Source: Chitinophagaceae bacterium (GTDB lineage Bacteria; Bacteroidota; Bacteroidia; Chitinophagales; UBA10324). From it: a DNA stretch of 64,000 bases. Shown here one piece after another: positions 22,592 to 35,005 of the stretch (within the stretch, counting starts at the first letter, position 1; every line of letters starts with the position of its first letter). A program made the position numbers and the translations under genes. Below the pieces are notes generated by a model that saw only the letters and a program-made list of their open reading frames with translations, made no database searches and was not told where the DNA came from. The stretch is from NCBI GenBank assembly GCA_947469485.1, contig CANIPU010000015.1:1-64000 (forward strand). Reading direction: 5' to 3'.

Positions 22592-24244
22592 ATGAGAAGA
22601 ATTCGACTACTTTTTTTAGTAAAAACACGACAATCGGTGCGCGTAAGAACCACCCGTGCTATAATGATTGGCACATTTTGCCTTGCTTTAATTGCAGGGC
22701 TTGTGATTTTTATATTTCAGTTTTCACGCTCTCCAAATACAATTGCCTCTGGTAACGATATTACTTTTCGATCTTACCAAGGTTTGAATTTTCAAAAATT
22801 GGTTCGAACGCAGGATGGGAATATTGTTGTATCCGATGGAAAAAATTTTATTAAATCAGATTCTGCAGGAAATATAATCTGGTCGAGAGGTATAACCCAA
22901 ACAACAAATTTGATAATTTCCGGAATGTGCGAAACAACGAATGGAGATATAGTTGCGGCATGTCAATCAACAGATACCTCTGGCGGGGTGGCGCAAATTG
23001 CACTAATCAGAATGTCATCAGATGGTGCATTGGAGTGGTTTAAGTTTTTGCATAAACAAGGTTCCGATTTTATTTATGGAATTTCAGCTGATAATGATAA
23101 CGGGGTAATATTAACCGGTGGAGGTTGCTCAACAAACCATTTGATTCTAAAAGCAGATGCACAAGGAAGTTTACTATGGATGAAAGATTATTCACTGAAT
23201 GGATCAACAGGATCTGCAAACAAAATTATTGTGAATTCTGATGGAAGCATGTTCGTTTCAGGTAGATTGAATGAAATTTCTTCAAATTATATTTCATTGT
23301 TTATGACTGATGCGGGAGGTAATATTCTTTGGGGAAAAAAGTTTTCAGATTCTCAACAACCCGTTATCAAATCTTTCATTAGAACTTCTGATAATTGTTT
23401 AATGATTGCAGGAACATATATAGGTGGGGCTTCAGCTTCCAATAATCCTTTTATTCTAAAAACAGATTTGAATGGAAATCTTTTGTGGTTTAAGAGGTAT
23501 GGCACAAATGGAATTGAGTCAATTAACGATATGTCACCAACCAGTGATGGAGGTGCTATTGTTACCGGCAATATATATCTGAATCAGGATGAGAATGTAA
23601 ATGCATTATTGTTTCGTGTTGATGCTGGTGGTACCTTAGTTTGGCAAAAATCAACAGGTAATAATGAGTTTAATGGAGCCGGATATGATGATGCTTATGA
23701 TATATGCCATATAACCGAACATACTTATGCAATTTCAGGTATGGCTTACTGGGCTTATCTGTGTACAATTGATGAAAACGGAAATGGATTTTGTCATGAA
23801 TCTCCTGTTTCATTAACAGTTTCAAATGTTACTACTCAAACGATAAATGCAGTTTATTCTCCGGTACTTTCTAATATGTTTGATGTTACCGATGGCATAG
23901 CTTCCTCAACCAATATTTTTATCGGAACCCCTCATACATGTGCTTCTTTTAACCCAACAGGAATTAATTATCAGTCAGAATCAGGTAGCGATAATTCAGA
24001 AGTAAGTTTATTTCCGAATCCAAGTGATGGAAATTTCAATGTCAATTACTTTTTGCCATATGAAGGAAGCGGATGGCTGGAACTTTATGATTTGGGAGGC
24101 AGAAAACTTTCTGCGATTGAATTACCAATTTACAATCGTTCTGTTTCGTTACATTATTCTGATTTACCAAGCGGTATTTATTTATATCAGGTAATTGCAG
24201 GAGGGAAAATTTTTAAGCGAGAAAAATTTGTGATTTCAAAATAA
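22592..24244 (+). CDS. Secreted beta-propeller-like protein with T9SS sorting tail
   Basis: 550 residues. Residues ~60-400 are repeated units of ~45-50 residues with the pattern T-x-D-G-x-I/V...G, ending in lines such as LIRMSSDGALEWFKF, LILKADAQGSLLWMKD and LFRVDAGGTLVWQKS. These are typical of SBBP-like beta-propellers. The C-terminus is a type A T9SS tail (EVSLFPNPSDGNFNVNYFLP ... DLPSGIYLYQV). The N-terminus is odd: about 24 basic residues before a hydrophobic segment (IGTFCLALIAGLVIFIFQF). An internal ATG at 22664 would give a normal signal, so the start is uncertain. Function unknown; secreted and surface-exposed. Confidence 0.82.
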   Translation: MRRIRLLFLVKTRQSVRVRTTRAIMIGTFCLALIAGLVIFIFQFSRSPNTIASGNDITFRSYQGLNFQKLVRTQDGNIVVSDGKNFIKSDSAGNIIWSRGITQTTNLIISGMCETTNGDIVAACQSTDTSGGVAQIALIRMSSDGALEWFKFLHKQGSDFIYGISADNDNGVILTGGGCSTNHLILKADAQGSLLWMKDYSLNGSTGSANKIIVNSDGSMFVSGRLNEISSNYISLFMTDAGGNILWGKKFSDSQQPVIKSFIRTSDNCLMIAGTYIGGASASNNPFILKTDLNGNLLWFKRYGTNGIESINDMSPTSDGGAIVTGNIYLNQDENVNALLFRVDAGGTLVWQKSTGNNEFNGAGYDDAYDICHITEHTYAISGMAYWAYLCTIDENGNGFCHESPVSLTVSNVTTQTINAVYSPVLSNMFDVTDGIASSTNIFIGTPHTCASFNPTGINYQSESGSDNSEVSLFPNPSDGNFNVNYFLPYEGSGWLELYDLGGRKLSAIELPIYNRSVSLHYSDLPSGIYLYQVIAGGKIFKREKFVISK

Positions 24245-24320: not shown

Positions 24321-24773
24321 TCAAGATTGATATCCACTGTCAATTAGTAAATCAAAACCATCAGCCGCTTCTGTTGCTAATACATCACATCTTTCGTTTT
24401 CAGGATGAGCATTATGTCCTTTAATCCAATGAAATTTAACTTTGTGTTTTGCATATATAGCTAAAAATCGTTTCCATAAATCAGGATTTTTTTTGTCTTT
24501 AAATCCTTTTTTCTCCCAGCCAAACACCCATTTTTTTTCTACTGATTCTACAACATATTTCGAATCAGAATAAATATCAATAACATTATCATGGTTTTTT
24601 ATTGCCTCCAATCCAACTATCACAGCAAGCAATTCCATTCTGTTGTTAGTAGTTAGCTTAAACCCTTTCGATATTTCTTTTCGATGGTCTCCGGATATAA
24701 GAATAACGCCAAACCCGCCGGGCCCTGGATTTCCTCTTGAAGAACCATCAGTATAAATTTTTATGTGATGCAA
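24321..24773 (-). CDS. rnhA: Ribonuclease HI
   Basis: 150 residues, the standard length. It degrades the RNA strand of RNA-DNA hybrids in the cytoplasm. The four acidic active-site residues are all present in order: YTDGSSRGNPGPGGFG (Asp9), NNRMELLAVI (Glu), IYSDSKYVV (Asp) and HPENERCDVLA (Asp). The basic substrate-handle region WVFGWEKKGFKDKKNPDLWK matches the E. coli form. WIKGHNAHPEN carries the catalytic-loop His. Single gene closed by the shared terminator. Confidence 0.96.
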   Translation of the reverse strand: MHHIKIYTDGSSRGNPGPGGFGVILISGDHRKEISKGFKLTTNNRMELLAVIVGLEAIKNHDNVIDIYSDSKYVVESVEKKWVFGWEKKGFKDKKNPDLWKRFLAIYAKHKVKFHWIKGHNAHPENERCDVLATEAADGFDLLIDSGYQS

Positions 24774-24849
24774 TTGCCGTAATAATATTTAGTTTGAATT
24801 GCCGAAAATAATTTTTTCACTTTTACCATTTCATTTTTAATTTCAAACT

Positions 24850-25617
24850 ATGCACATCACTCTTCAAAATAAGAGCACCAAAGTTTTTATGATGTTAAGC
24901 TCATTCTTTGTAGCTAATGCATTAATAGCAGAATGTATTGGGGTGAAAATTTTTTCATTGGAAAAAACATTTGGATTTAATCCCCTGAATGCCACAATAT
25001 TTAATCAACCTGGAATATCGTTTACCTTGACTTGCGGTGTTTTATTATGGCCTTTGGAATTTATTATGACAGATATTATAAATGAATATTTTGGACCAAA
25101 AGGGGTAAGGCGTGTTTCATACATCGCGGTTAGTTTAATTTTATATGCATTTATGATGTTTTATTTTGCTATGCAACTTGCACCTGCTGACTTTTGGATT
25201 GGAGTGAATTCTGATAAAGGTGTTCCTGATATGCCTTCAGCATTTAATGCAATTTTTGGCCAAGGAATGTGGATTATTTTTGGATCACTTACAGCCTTTC
25301 TTGTAAGTCAGGTTGTGGATGTTACAGTATTTCATTGGGTGAAAAGAAAAACCGGTGAAAAAAAAATGTGGCTCCGAGCAACCGGAAGCACTTTTGTATC
25401 ACAGCTTGTAGATAGTTTTATTGTTTTATTTATTGCATTTTATATTGGACAGGGTTGGAGCATGAATTTAGTTCTGGCAATATGCTTATTCAATTACACA
25501 TATAAATTTTTTGCGGCAATTGTTCTTACTCCTGTAATGTACCTGGTTCATAATGTTATTGATAAATATCTTGGAGCTGAATTAGCCAATGAAATGAAAG
25601 TGGCTGCAATGAAATAA
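24850..25617 (+). CDS. Queuosine precursor transporter (YhhQ/VUT family)
   Basis: 255 residues with about six to seven membrane helices. Family features are FVANALIAECIGVKIFSL in helix 1, WPLEFIMTDIINEYFGPKGVRR after helix 2 (the conserved acidic DIINEYFG), and ATGSTFVSQLVDSFIVLFIAF late in the protein. Members import queuine or preQ1-type bases used to modify tRNA wobble positions. The substrate is inferred from family. It ends just before the cobalamin riboswitch, which belongs to the next gene, not this one. Confidence 0.88.
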   Translation: MHITLQNKSTKVFMMLSSFFVANALIAECIGVKIFSLEKTFGFNPLNATIFNQPGISFTLTCGVLLWPLEFIMTDIINEYFGPKGVRRVSYIAVSLILYAFMMFYFAMQLAPADFWIGVNSDKGVPDMPSAFNAIFGQGMWIIFGSLTAFLVSQVVDVTVFHWVKRKTGEKKMWLRATGSTFVSQLVDSFIVLFIAFYIGQGWSMNLVLAICLFNYTYKFFAAIVLTPVMYLVHNVIDKYLGAELANEMKVAAMK

Positions 25618-25629
25618 ATTGCAAAATGC

Positions 25630-25815
25630 TGATTACTTTCGTCCCGTCGTGGTTTCCTGAAAGATGAAGGGAATGAAAAGGGAATGAGGTTTAAAACCTC
25701 AACAGTCCCCGCTGCTGTGAATCTTGAAATTGCAAACAATAAGTCGCCACTGAAAAATCGGGAAGGCAGTTTGCAAATAAGATAAGTCAGAAGACCTGCC
25801 ATGACAAAAGAATCA
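25630..25815 (+). promoter_or_regulatory. Cobalamin (B12) riboswitch
   Basis: The conserved core is present in order: TGAAAAGGGAA, then GGT...AAAACC, then ACAGTCCCCGCTGCTGTGA. These are followed by GTCGCCACTG, CGGGAAGGC and the B12 box AAGTCAGAAGACCTGCC (25784-25800). The closing P1 helix can be paired between 25630-25643 and 25803-25815. The box has A where the usual sequence has G (CAGAAG versus CAGGAG). It senses adenosyl- or related cobalamin and normally represses downstream uptake genes when B12 is plentiful. The gene controlled is the beta-propeller at 25928. No clear Rho-independent terminator lies between them, so control may be translational. Confidence 0.93.
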
Positions 25816-25817
25816 AA

Positions 25818-25907
25818 ATGCCTTCGGAGGAAAGGTTGCTCAGATTACAAGTGAAATTTATTTCGCTGTTAGCTGTTGCAACTATTTTCTCGCAACTAAA
25901 AATTTAA
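25818..25907 (+). other. Short leader ORF between riboswitch and propeller gene
   Basis: A 29-codon frame from ATG at 25818, or 18 codons from GTG at 25851 (stop 25905-25907). From the GTG it reads MKFISLLAVATIFSQLKI, which looks like a lipid-free signal peptide followed at once by a stop. A GGAGG motif lies at 25826-25830. It could be chance, a leader peptide, or the remnant of a lost gene such as a receptor. No evidence of translation. Confidence 0.25.
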
Positions 25908-25927
25908 ATTCAAAACATAAATCCGAT

Positions 25928-27235
25928 ATGAAAAACAAATTGACAAAAAGATTTCTAATTGTTGCAATACTTTTTTGCAGTATTGTTGCTAATGCACAGC
26001 AAACCCTTAATCAGGTAATTATACTTAACGAAGGCAGATATGACTATTCTCTTCAGCAAATAGATAAGCCTGTTACTGTGGGCACTTACAATCCAACAAC
26101 AAATACATATTTTGTTTTTGATACAATAGAAAATGCCCGATTTGCATCTGATGTTGTTGTTGATGATGCAAATATTTTTGTTTCAGCAGATAATGTTTTA
26201 TTGAAATATGATTTGAATACGCTTCAGTTAGTTTCTACACAAAGTGTTAATGGCATTCGTAAGCTGGCATTATGGAATGATAAAATTTTAGTGACGAGAG
26301 GAGAATACTTGACAACTTATGATTCATACTTTCAGGTTTATAATAAATCTGATTTAAGTTTTGATTACCAACTTGATACTTTGAATGGCCCTCATTATGC
26401 CTCAGATGGTATTGTTATTAAAGACAATATTGCATACATAGCAATCAATAATGGTTTTGTTTGGGGAGGAGCTGTTGGAATTGTAGGTCAAGTTGATTTG
26501 TTAAATCAAAATTATTTACCTGAAATTTCACTTGGTGCTGATGGAATAAATCCTGAAAATATTTTGATTGATAATAACAAAATTTATACTGTAAATAACA
26601 GAGATTATTCATTTGCATCAATTAGCAGTATTGATATTTCAAATTTAAATGTTGTAACTACCAATCTAAACAATGCCGGTGGTTGTCAGGGCTCTGCATT
26701 TATAAATTCAAAAATTGCTTACCAGACTTATAGCGAGAATTTTATCGGACAATTTGATGTGAATGCACAAAGCATAAGCGACTCCCTTTTTATTAATCGA
26801 AGTATTTACGCTATGGAAGCTGATTTGCTAAATCAGCGCTTATATGCCTCAGAAACTGATTTCAGTTCCTATGGTTTGGTTTTGATTTATTCGACAAATG
26901 GAAGTTTACTAAATGCCTTTGTTGCAGGAGTTACACCAGGAAAATTTGCATTCGATTACCGAAATGCAAGTGGAATTAACAAGGCAACCAGCGATTTTCA
27001 GTTTTTGGTTTTCCCTAATCCTGCAAGAAATGAATTAACTGTAGCATGCACCGATTCAGATGAAAATTCTTCTTTCACACTTACATCTATTGATGGAAAA
27101 ATTCTTTTCCGGAATACTATAAGTGGAAAAAACTTTGTTCAACATATTGATATTTCAAAATATGAATCAGGAACTTACTTGCTTACTCTTCAATCGAGAA
27201 ACAAAACCTTGGTACAGAAGGTTGTTAAATATTAA
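25928..27235 (+). CDS. B12-riboswitch-controlled T9SS-sorted beta-propeller, BtuG-like
   Basis: 435 residues: signal peptide (ending NAQQ, ~residues 1-24), a ~310-residue beta-propeller, and a type A T9SS tail (FLVFPNPARNELTV ... YESGTYLLTLQSR). The propeller opens VIILNEGRYDYSL, then TYNPTTNTYFVFD and SDVVVDDANIFV. This layout resembles the LNEG...YNP...NG start of BtuG, the Bacteroides surface propeller that captures cobalamin beside the TonB receptor BtuB. Blade units such as GINPENILIDNNKIYTVNNRD also match YncE-like propellers. Regulation by a B12 riboswitch strongly supports a cobalamin role. Unlike BtuG it has no lipobox and should be placed by T9SS. BtuB is not adjacent. The function is inferred. 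Confidence 0.8.
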   Translation: MKNKLTKRFLIVAILFCSIVANAQQTLNQVIILNEGRYDYSLQQIDKPVTVGTYNPTTNTYFVFDTIENARFASDVVVDDANIFVSADNVLLKYDLNTLQLVSTQSVNGIRKLALWNDKILVTRGEYLTTYDSYFQVYNKSDLSFDYQLDTLNGPHYASDGIVIKDNIAYIAINNGFVWGGAVGIVGQVDLLNQNYLPEISLGADGINPENILIDNNKIYTVNNRDYSFASISSIDISNLNVVTTNLNNAGGCQGSAFINSKIAYQTYSENFIGQFDVNAQSISDSLFINRSIYAMEADLLNQRLYASETDFSSYGLVLIYSTNGSLLNAFVAGVTPGKFAFDYRNASGINKATSDFQFLVFPNPARNELTVACTDSDENSSFTLTSIDGKILFRNTISGKNFVQHIDISKYESGTYLLTLQSRNKTLVQKVVKY

Positions 27236-27252
27236 ATGATAAATACAAATAG

Positions 27253-27292
27253 AAATGCCGCTTCAGAATTTTTGAAGCGGCATTTTTTATTT
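27253..27292. terminator. Bidirectional hairpin terminator
   Basis: A 13-bp stem (AAATGCCGCTTCA / TGAAGCGGCATTT) with loop GAATTTT, followed by T residues. It closes the riboswitch-controlled gene and the convergent methyltransferase. Confidence 0.85.
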
Positions 27293-32506: not shown

Positions 32507-35005
32507 ATGAGTCCTTATTTCTACCTGATACCGTGTTTCGGAATTGTTGCCTTGTTGTTTACTGCCTGGAAATCTGCTTGGGTTTCAAAACAAGACGCAG
32601 GAAATGATAGAATGAAAGAAATTTCAACTTACATTGCTGAGGGTGCAATGGCATTTTTAAAAGCCGAATGGAAAGTTTTAGGCTATTTTGTTGTAATAGC
32701 TGCAATACTTTTAGCCATTCTCGGTTATTCAAATCCTGAGTCAAGTTGGCTAATTGCTATTGCATTTATTATTGGCGCAGTATTTTCTGCTACTGCAGGT
32801 TATATAGGTATGAATATCGCTACAAAAGCAAATGTTCGTACCGCTCATGCAGCCCGTACAAGTTTATCAAAAGCACTTAATGTCTCATTCACCGGTGGTT
32901 CTGTTATGGGAATGGGAGTAACCGGAATGGCAGTTCTTGGTTTGGGGTCTTTATTTATTGGTCTGTATTACATGTTTGCTGAGGGAAATGGTCCTGCTGG
33001 ATTACAAACAGCACTTGAAGTACTAACTGGTTTTTCGCTTGGCGCCGAAAGTATTGCACTTTTTGCGCGCGTAGGGGGTGGAATTTATACGAAGGCTGCA
33101 GATGTGGGAGCTGATTTGGTAGGAAAGGTAGAAGCAGGCATTCCGGAAGATGATCCACGCAACCCTGCAACAATCGCTGATAATGTTGGTGATAATGTTG
33201 GAGATGTTGCCGGAATGGGAGCCGATCTTTTCGGGTCTTTTGTTGCAACTATCCTTGCAACAATGGTTCTGGGAAGAGAAATTACAGTTGTAGATAATTT
33301 TGGTGGATTATCTCCAATACTTCTGCCAATGATGCTTTGTGGAATGGGAATAATATTTTCAATGATTGCAACATTCTTCGTGAAAATTAAAGATACAGCT
33401 GAAGCATCTACATCTATTGTACAAGCAGCATTAAATAAAGGGAATTGGGGAGCGATTATTCTAACTGCTATATCAAGTTATTTTTTAATTAATTGGTTGT
33501 TACCAGATACAATGGATTTGCGTGGTCATGAATTTACTAAAATGGGAGTGTTCGGTGCTGTGATTCTTGGTTTGGTGGTTGGAACATTAATGAGTTTAAT
33601 TACTGAATATTATACTTCGATGGGAAAGCGACCAGTTAATTCCATAATTCGTCAATCATCAACTGGACATGCAACAAATATTATTGCTGGTCTTGCTGTT
33701 GGAATGGAGTCAACTGTTGCTCCTATTATTGTTTTAGCGGCAGGTATTTATGGCTCTTTCATGTTCGCTGGATTATATGGAGTTGCAATCGCAGCTGCCG
33801 GAATGATGGCAACTACAGCTATGCAATTAGCAATTGATGCTTTCGGACCCATTGCTGATAATGCTGGTGGTATAGCGGAAATGAGTGAATTGGAAAAAGA
33901 AGTTCGCGAAAAAACTGATACCCTTGATGCCGTTGGAAATACTACAGCTGCAACAGGAAAAGGATTTGCAATTGCTTCTGCTGCATTAACTTCTCTTGCC
34001 TTGTTTGCTGCATTTGTTGGAATAGCCGGAATTAATAAAATTGACATTTACCAGGCTGATGTACTTGCAGGGTTATTTATCGGAGCGATGATTCCGTTTA
34101 TCTTTTCATCATTAGCAATTGCAGCTGTTGGTCGTGCAGCAATGGCAATGGTTGAAGAGGTTCGTCGTCAGTTTCGTGAGATTCCTGGAATTATGGAAGG
34201 TACAGGCAAACCGGAATATGATAAATGTGTGGCAATTTCAACTAAAGCATCAATTCGTGAAATGATGGCTCCTGGTGCAATTGCTATTATTGTACCGGTA
34301 GTGGTTGGGTTCACTTTTGGTGCTGAAGTTTTAGGCGGAATGTTAGCCGGAGTAACTGTTTCAGGTGTATTGATGGGAATGTTTCAATCAAACGCAGGTG
34401 GCGCATGGGATAATGCTAAAAAAAGTTTTGAAAAAGGGGCAGTAATTAATGGTGAAACATTCTACAAAAAATCAGAGCCACATAAAGCTTCAGTAACAGG
34501 TGATACTGTTGGAGATCCGTTTAAAGATACCAGTGGACCTTCCATGAATATATTAATTAAGTTAATGTCTATTGTTAGTTTGGTTATTGCTCCATCAATA
34601 GGTCATCCTTTTATTAATTCAAGTGTTGAAAACAGTGGTCAAGATGGTTGTATGCATAAAATGGAATGTTGTGATCATGGAATGATGAATAGTGAGGGAT
34701 GTTCTGAAGGAAAAGAAAATTGCGGAGGTCATATGGGCATGAATTGTTGCAAAGGTGGAATGACTGAAGGGGATTCTTCAAATTGCAAACATGGAATGGA
34801 GCATTGTAAAGGTGAAATGGGTAATTGTGAAGGGCATAATAATATGGAATGCAACATGAAGGGTTCTGATATGCATTCAGGAGCTTGTTGCGGAGAATGC
34901 AAGGATAAATGCAAATCTGATTGCAGTAATAATGGAAAATGCAAAGAAGAGGGAAACAAAGGATGTTGCACTGAAGGAAAAAAAGAATGTTGCAGTAAGA
35001 AGTAA
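32507..35005 (+). CDS. hppA: Ion-translocating membrane pyrophosphatase with Cys/Met/His-rich C-terminal tail
   Basis: Residues 1 to ~705 are a 16-helix membrane-bound pyrophosphatase, which couples pyrophosphate hydrolysis to H+ or Na+ export. Diagnostic segments are [20 protein letters not shown] and [20 protein letters not shown] (substrate and Mg sites) and the last cytosolic loop [14 protein letters not shown]...[23 protein letters not shown] (Ala481) is the potassium-dependent subtype; H+ versus Na+ specificity is not decided. After the last helix ([18 protein letters not shown]), residues 715-832 form a hydrophilic tail with 21 Cys, 12 Met and 7 His, absent from standard members (~700-750 residues). 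The tail would face the periplasm and probably binds soft metals. Confidence 0.95.
34649..35002 (+). other. Coding segment for the metal-binding-like tail of the pyrophosphatase
   Basis: 118 codons in frame with hppA, starting at the first tail Cys and ending at the last residue before the stop. Dense CC pairs (ECCDHG, MNCCKG, ACCGEC, GCCTEG, ECCSKK) and M/H-rich linkers (CMHKME, GGHMGM, KHGMEH) alternate every 5-10 residues, like a metallothionein or copper-binding low-complexity domain. Confidence 0.85.

Follow-up and report, generated by a model that had tools for sequence, protein, structure and literature searches.

The riboswitch and the propeller gene

The window analysed here is a stretch of 64,000 nucleotides from a Chitinophagaceae bacterium, which belongs to an uncultured Bacteroidota lineage. 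It contains a cobalamin riboswitch, which is followed by a gene for a secreted beta-propeller protein and by a terminator. The features of this region are the following:

24850–25617, + strand: Vut_1/queuosine precursor transporter, upstream neighbour (PF02592 164 bits, TIGR00697 132.6 bits)
25633–25817, + strand: cobalamin riboswitch aptamer RF00174 (cmscan 110.6 bits, E 7.6e-27)
25818–25927, + strand: expression platform and 5' leader; the sequence is conserved in part between orthologues that have the riboswitch (six orthologous leaders aligned at the DNA level)
25928–27235, + strand: secreted BtuG-like beta-propeller protein with a type A sorting domain of the type IX secretion system (T9SS), 435 aa (ORF with ATG at 25928 and stop at 27235)
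25928–25999, + strand: signal peptide, residues 1–24, ending in VANAQ, no lipobox (sequence scan, cleavage site placed by eye)
26000–26968, + strand: beta-propeller domain, residues ~25–347 (AlphaFold2 pLDDT mostly 80–95; BtuG structures align with Z 31.4–34.5 over residues 25–349)
27008–27232, + strand: T9SS C-terminal sorting domain, type A, VFPNPARN..., residues 361–435 (TIGR04183, PF18962)
27251–27287, + strand: intrinsic terminator, a near-perfect hairpin with a 17-pair stem and a T-run

The match to RF00174 covers model positions 1–189 of 189, i.e. the aptamer is full-length, and its score is above the gathering score of 31.5. A search for other B12 riboswitches shows that it is the only copy in the genome, whose completeness is rated 100%. 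The distance from the aptamer to the ATG of the propeller gene is 111 nt. Folded as a single strand, aptamer and leader have a z-score of −2.7.

The N-terminus of the protein is MKNKLTKRFLIVAILFCSIVANAQ; an LNEG motif comes after the signal peptide. At the other end, residues 361–434 match PF18962 (Por_Secre_tail) with 46 bits (cut-off 27) and TIGR04183 with 41.7 bits (cut-off 23). The protein has both a Sec signal peptide and a C-terminal sorting domain, the combination which defines T9SS cargo. A lipobox of the SPII type is absent from it and from its orthologues in the genus, as judged by a sequence scan. The first-pass annotation had described a complete cobalamin riboswitch and a gene for a signal peptide, propeller and T9SS tail with a terminator at its end, the export signal standing in place of a lipid anchor. 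All these elements are found by the methods given above; the terminator lies just beyond the end coordinate proposed in that annotation.

The propeller gene is the only one in its riboswitch transcription unit. The queuosine precursor transporter gene is also the upstream neighbour in the rest of the genus and in genome G072, and it is probably not part of the unit. Downstream there is a methyltransferase gene in the opposite orientation. Elsewhere in the window a second protein with a T9SS tail is encoded at 22592–24244. By eye, the ORF at 32507–35005 resembles a membrane-bound pyrophosphatase; its C-terminal tail is long and rich in Cys, His and Met, which is suggestive of metal binding.

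Conservation of the riboswitch-propeller pair

Of the 398 genomes of this order that were searched, 25 encode a relative of the propeller. Outside the family of the window, all ten propeller genomes with a riboswitch have it directly upstream of the propeller gene. In five genomes of the family the orthologous gene directly follows the riboswitch, and the same pairing appears in seven further named MAG loci, several of them labelled Flavobacteriales. An eighth MAG locus, L078, has been left out, since it is on the same contig as G078. Altogether the pair is found in 22 loci, the window included, in six GTDB families and in Flavobacteriales. The pairing in relatives on which the first-pass annotation had left a question is thus conserved, with protein identities of about 25–45%. 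The presence of the same layout in these 22 loci is far beyond chance. The T9SS tail itself is present in 20 of the 21 propeller homologues.

Some genomes have the propeller and no riboswitch. Six genomes of family f18 keep the gene, and they have no B12 riboswitch. In the genus of the window, G013 has also kept the gene without the aptamer: it is a natural case of a propeller gene freed from B12 control. A remnant aptamer in this genome is rejected, as there are no RF00174 matches even at a lax threshold. The leader of its propeller gene (L047, 7397–7700, − strand) lacks the aptamer and has kept some of the leader sequence downstream of it.

Relationship with BtuG

A phmmer search of the window protein against the PDB gives the BtuG structures as the best matches outside the tail, with E values from 5e-4 to 1e-3. 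With a profile of 21 homologues (hmmsearch) we find nine distinct BtuG chains, E 3e-8 to 4e-7; leaving aside proteins with T9SS tails, these are the best matches. Comparison by hhalign with the BtuG lipoproteins of related genomes has a probability of 98.0% and E 1.6e-13, and it spans the whole propeller.

The predicted structure agrees with these results. The AlphaFold2 model has a mean pLDDT of 84.6. When it is searched with Foldseek the top 13 rows are all BtuG, with E from 1e-17 to 2e-15 and a TM-score on the target of 0.77–0.83. In VIA-align eleven BtuG entries have Z values of 31.4–34.5 and the best other propeller has 30.3, a difference of about one to four Z units in a fold as versatile as the beta-propeller. 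The BtuG likeness seen in the first-pass annotation is therefore upheld in sequence and in predicted fold, with BtuG ranking first in both structural comparisons.

The identity to BtuG is low, 15–19%. None of the 21 propeller members has a match with the Pfam model DUF5074, whereas the lipoprotein BtuGs of relatives score 67–84 bits. The window protein is a separate branch of the BtuG kind, with low identity, no lipid anchor and a place outside DUF5074.

Compared with BtuG1/2/3 of Bacteroides thetaiotaomicron (PDB 3dsm, 8bmy, 8okv, 8bmx), the window protein has the same type of beta-propeller with an NEG opening, a common C-terminal motif D-F/Y...G...G...PG, an acidic character, control by a cobalamin riboswitch and an implied surface location. 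It differs by its T9SS tail in place of a lipoprotein anchor; also, no BtuB gene is adjacent in its genus and the protein is alone in its unit. The surface B12-binding lipoproteins BtuH, BtuJ and BtuK of B. thetaiotaomicron are likewise extra riboswitch-controlled proteins for B12 capture at the surface, which is the role predicted for the window protein. Unlike it, they are mostly lipid-anchored, and the domains described for them so far are unrelated to it (BtuJ, for instance, is a DUF4465 jelly roll; PMC13398666).

The putative B12-binding face can be compared in BtuG2, where the pocket for the upper ligand is lined by Trp194, Trp272, Tyr316 and Tyr335 (PMC10404256). In the HMM alignments Trp194, Tyr316 and Tyr335 correspond to Phe177, Tyr294 and Phe312 of the window protein, positions which are aromatic in at least 20 of the 21 homologues. 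Trp272 has no aromatic counterpart: it aligns with Gln254 in the window protein, mostly with a small residue in the homologues. The coincidence of three of the four aromatic residues hints at a binding site like that of BtuG2; it is suggestive only, because it is based on sequence-profile alignment. The propeller is acidic, with a pI of 4.24, which agrees with the negative charge of the B12-binding face in BtuG2 (PMC10404256, PMC6143338).

Operons with the propeller and other genes behind the riboswitch

In four genomes the propeller is the first gene of an operon: the riboswitch is followed by the propeller, a BtuF-like substrate-binding protein, a permease and an ABC ATPase. The best NCBIfam match of the permease is BtuC, with 203 bits. 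G127 and G023, which are distant relatives, have a different arrangement, a single run of riboswitch, propeller, SUMF1-like protein, small protein, BtuB-like TonB receptor and BtuG-like lipoprotein. In G001 the riboswitch is followed by a BtuB3-like receptor, to which the TonB receptor of the G127 operon is related, and by a BtuG lipoprotein. Since the run in G127 and G023 includes a lipoprotein BtuG, the T9SS protein supplements BtuG there and does not replace it. A SUMF1-like protein and a small secreted protein are encoded in the operons with propeller, TonB receptor and BtuG-like genes at L128:4663–6551, L133 and L139.

These operons bear on an alternative: the propeller might be regulated by B12 without binding it, acting as a surface adhesin or an enzyme for times of B12 scarcity, for example in reaching B12-producing partners. 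Its low identity to BtuG and the many functions served by propellers would allow it. However, BtuG is the best match both by sequence profile and by structure, and relatives place the propeller in operons with BtuFCD-like or BtuB/BtuG-like genes, so that we find this alternative quite improbable.

Other genera of the family have a single riboswitch which precedes a BtuB-like receptor; their genomes have no propeller. In two of them the riboswitch-receptor locus adjoins the gene for RNase HI, as it does in the window. The slot beside RNase HI (L039, L042 and 24321–25817 in the window) is occupied, depending on the lineage, by riboswitch and propeller or by riboswitch and BtuB-like receptor. This common slot suggests gene exchange or loss behind one riboswitch.

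The claim that the propeller is regulated apart from its transporter is thus correct in part. In relatives the propeller shares its control with BtuFCD-like or BtuB/BtuG genes, and in the genus of the window the analysis assigned no receptor to it.

The outer-membrane receptor

We found no TonB receptor gene near the window locus, in agreement with the absence of BtuB from the locus reported in the first-pass annotation. In the rest of the genome the BtuB model TIGR01779 has weak matches only (96.5 bits, with a cut-off of 599.7), and two BtuB-like queries from sister genera retrieve no full-length relative. As far as sequence comparison can tell, the genus of the window has no recognisable BtuB. 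Its genome does contain several TonB-dependent receptors without an assigned substrate. The receptor with the best TIGR01779 score, in C6, has been discarded as BtuB: it is flanked by HmuY-like proteins and looks like a heme receptor.

The propeller could be the lid of one specific TonB-dependent receptor encoded elsewhere, which has diverged beyond recognition as BtuB and is possibly of the widespread type found at C2:196979–199318 in the same genome. The several receptors of unassigned substrate would offer candidates for such a partner, and homologues of the C2 type immediately precede the riboswitch-propeller pair in L077 and L082, and in L131 and L132 they lie a short way upstream of it. 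However, 193 of the order's 398 genomes have this type, among them those of all sister genera; most of these sister genera have their own riboswitch-controlled receptor and no propeller. The family model which the C2 type matches best is one for heme receptors. We regard this possibility as rather doubtful. As a dedicated B12 receptor the C2 type has been rejected, as it occurs in about half of the order, also in genomes with another riboswitch-controlled receptor. The positions of its homologues upstream of the unit are L077:1730–4186, L082:6674–9130, L131:3722–6079 and L132:3311–5686, in two unrelated lineages.

Use of B12 and its import through the inner membrane

The genome of the window codes for MetH (1549.6 bits) and for a B12-binding domain of the methylmalonyl-CoA mutase (MCM) type, and a full IcmF is found in a sister genome. 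Since these proteins are encoded, B12 is used by this lineage. The MetH gene is split at L184:4364–8632 (C28 of the same genome) into ORFs of 338 and 901 aa; an unrelated short ORF separates them.

None of the 16 family genomes has a member of the FecCD/BtuC family, for which 13 of 14 control genomes are positive. An importer of the BtuCD type in the family has been rejected on this ground. A short membrane protein, DUF6580, is present as one copy in 15 of the 16 genomes, that of the window included. In six sister genomes its neighbour is the locus of riboswitch and BtuB-like receptor; L083 and L087 have it next to the propeller. Loci noted for it are:

G000:C30:8349–8846 (L202:8337–8852, − strand): DUF6580
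L039:8114–8653, − strand: DUF6580
L083:11374–11622: DUF6580
L087:1483–2040, − strand: DUF6580

The DUF6580 profile has no match in the PDB, and we found no mention of this family in the open-licence literature. We consider it a candidate for the inner-membrane B12 importer. A tentative scheme would have B12 uptake without either BtuB or BtuCD: the T9SS BtuG-like protein would be its only riboswitch-controlled part, working with an unrelated TonB receptor and with import through DUF6580.

Proposed role

BtuG has been described so far as a lipid-anchored lid which acts on BtuB in gut Bacteroides. The window protein is probably a cobamide-capture protein under riboswitch control, delivered to the cell surface as a T9SS branch of the BtuG kind, and it would work with an outer-membrane receptor that this riboswitch does not control. 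At low cobamide levels in the cell the riboswitch would permit expression of the single gene, if B12 represses it as expected. Sec and, after it, the type IX system would carry the product to the cell surface, and there it would presumably be anchored. It would work like BtuG, with T9SS delivery replacing the lipid anchor: the propeller may capture cobamides at the surface and hand them over to a TonB-dependent outer-membrane receptor encoded elsewhere. The inner membrane would then be crossed by a route other than BtuCD, perhaps DUF6580. A similar capture of a cofactor at the surface for a TonB-dependent receptor is known for heme in proteins of the HmuY type, which have an unrelated fold and ligand.

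Alternatively, the cells might secrete the protein as a soluble trap which binds cobamides with high affinity, one of the possibilities named in the first-pass annotation; it would then be a protein "cobalophore", later recaptured by the cells. The T9SS tail in place of a lipid anchor and the absence of an adjacent BtuB to cap would agree with it. However, proteins with a type A T9SS tail usually lose it and become attached to surface lipopolysaccharide; a free trap would be lost in dilute water and would still require a receptor for its re-uptake. Release is thus unlikely, and surface capture is the reading that we prefer.

In the open-licence literature we have found no description of a T9SS-exported BtuG, and the single paper there that mentions both BtuG and T9SS makes no connection between them; an earlier account may exist elsewhere. 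In this genus, without a recognisable BtuB, a propeller of the BtuG kind is marked for another secretion system and is found as a lone gene under a B12 riboswitch. Two points can now be put to a direct test, namely the identity of the receptor for B12 and the putative part of DUF6580 as the inner-membrane importer that is missing. From the conserved linkage of riboswitch and propeller we would expect this branch of B12 scavenging to be widespread in Chitinophagales and Flavobacteriales.
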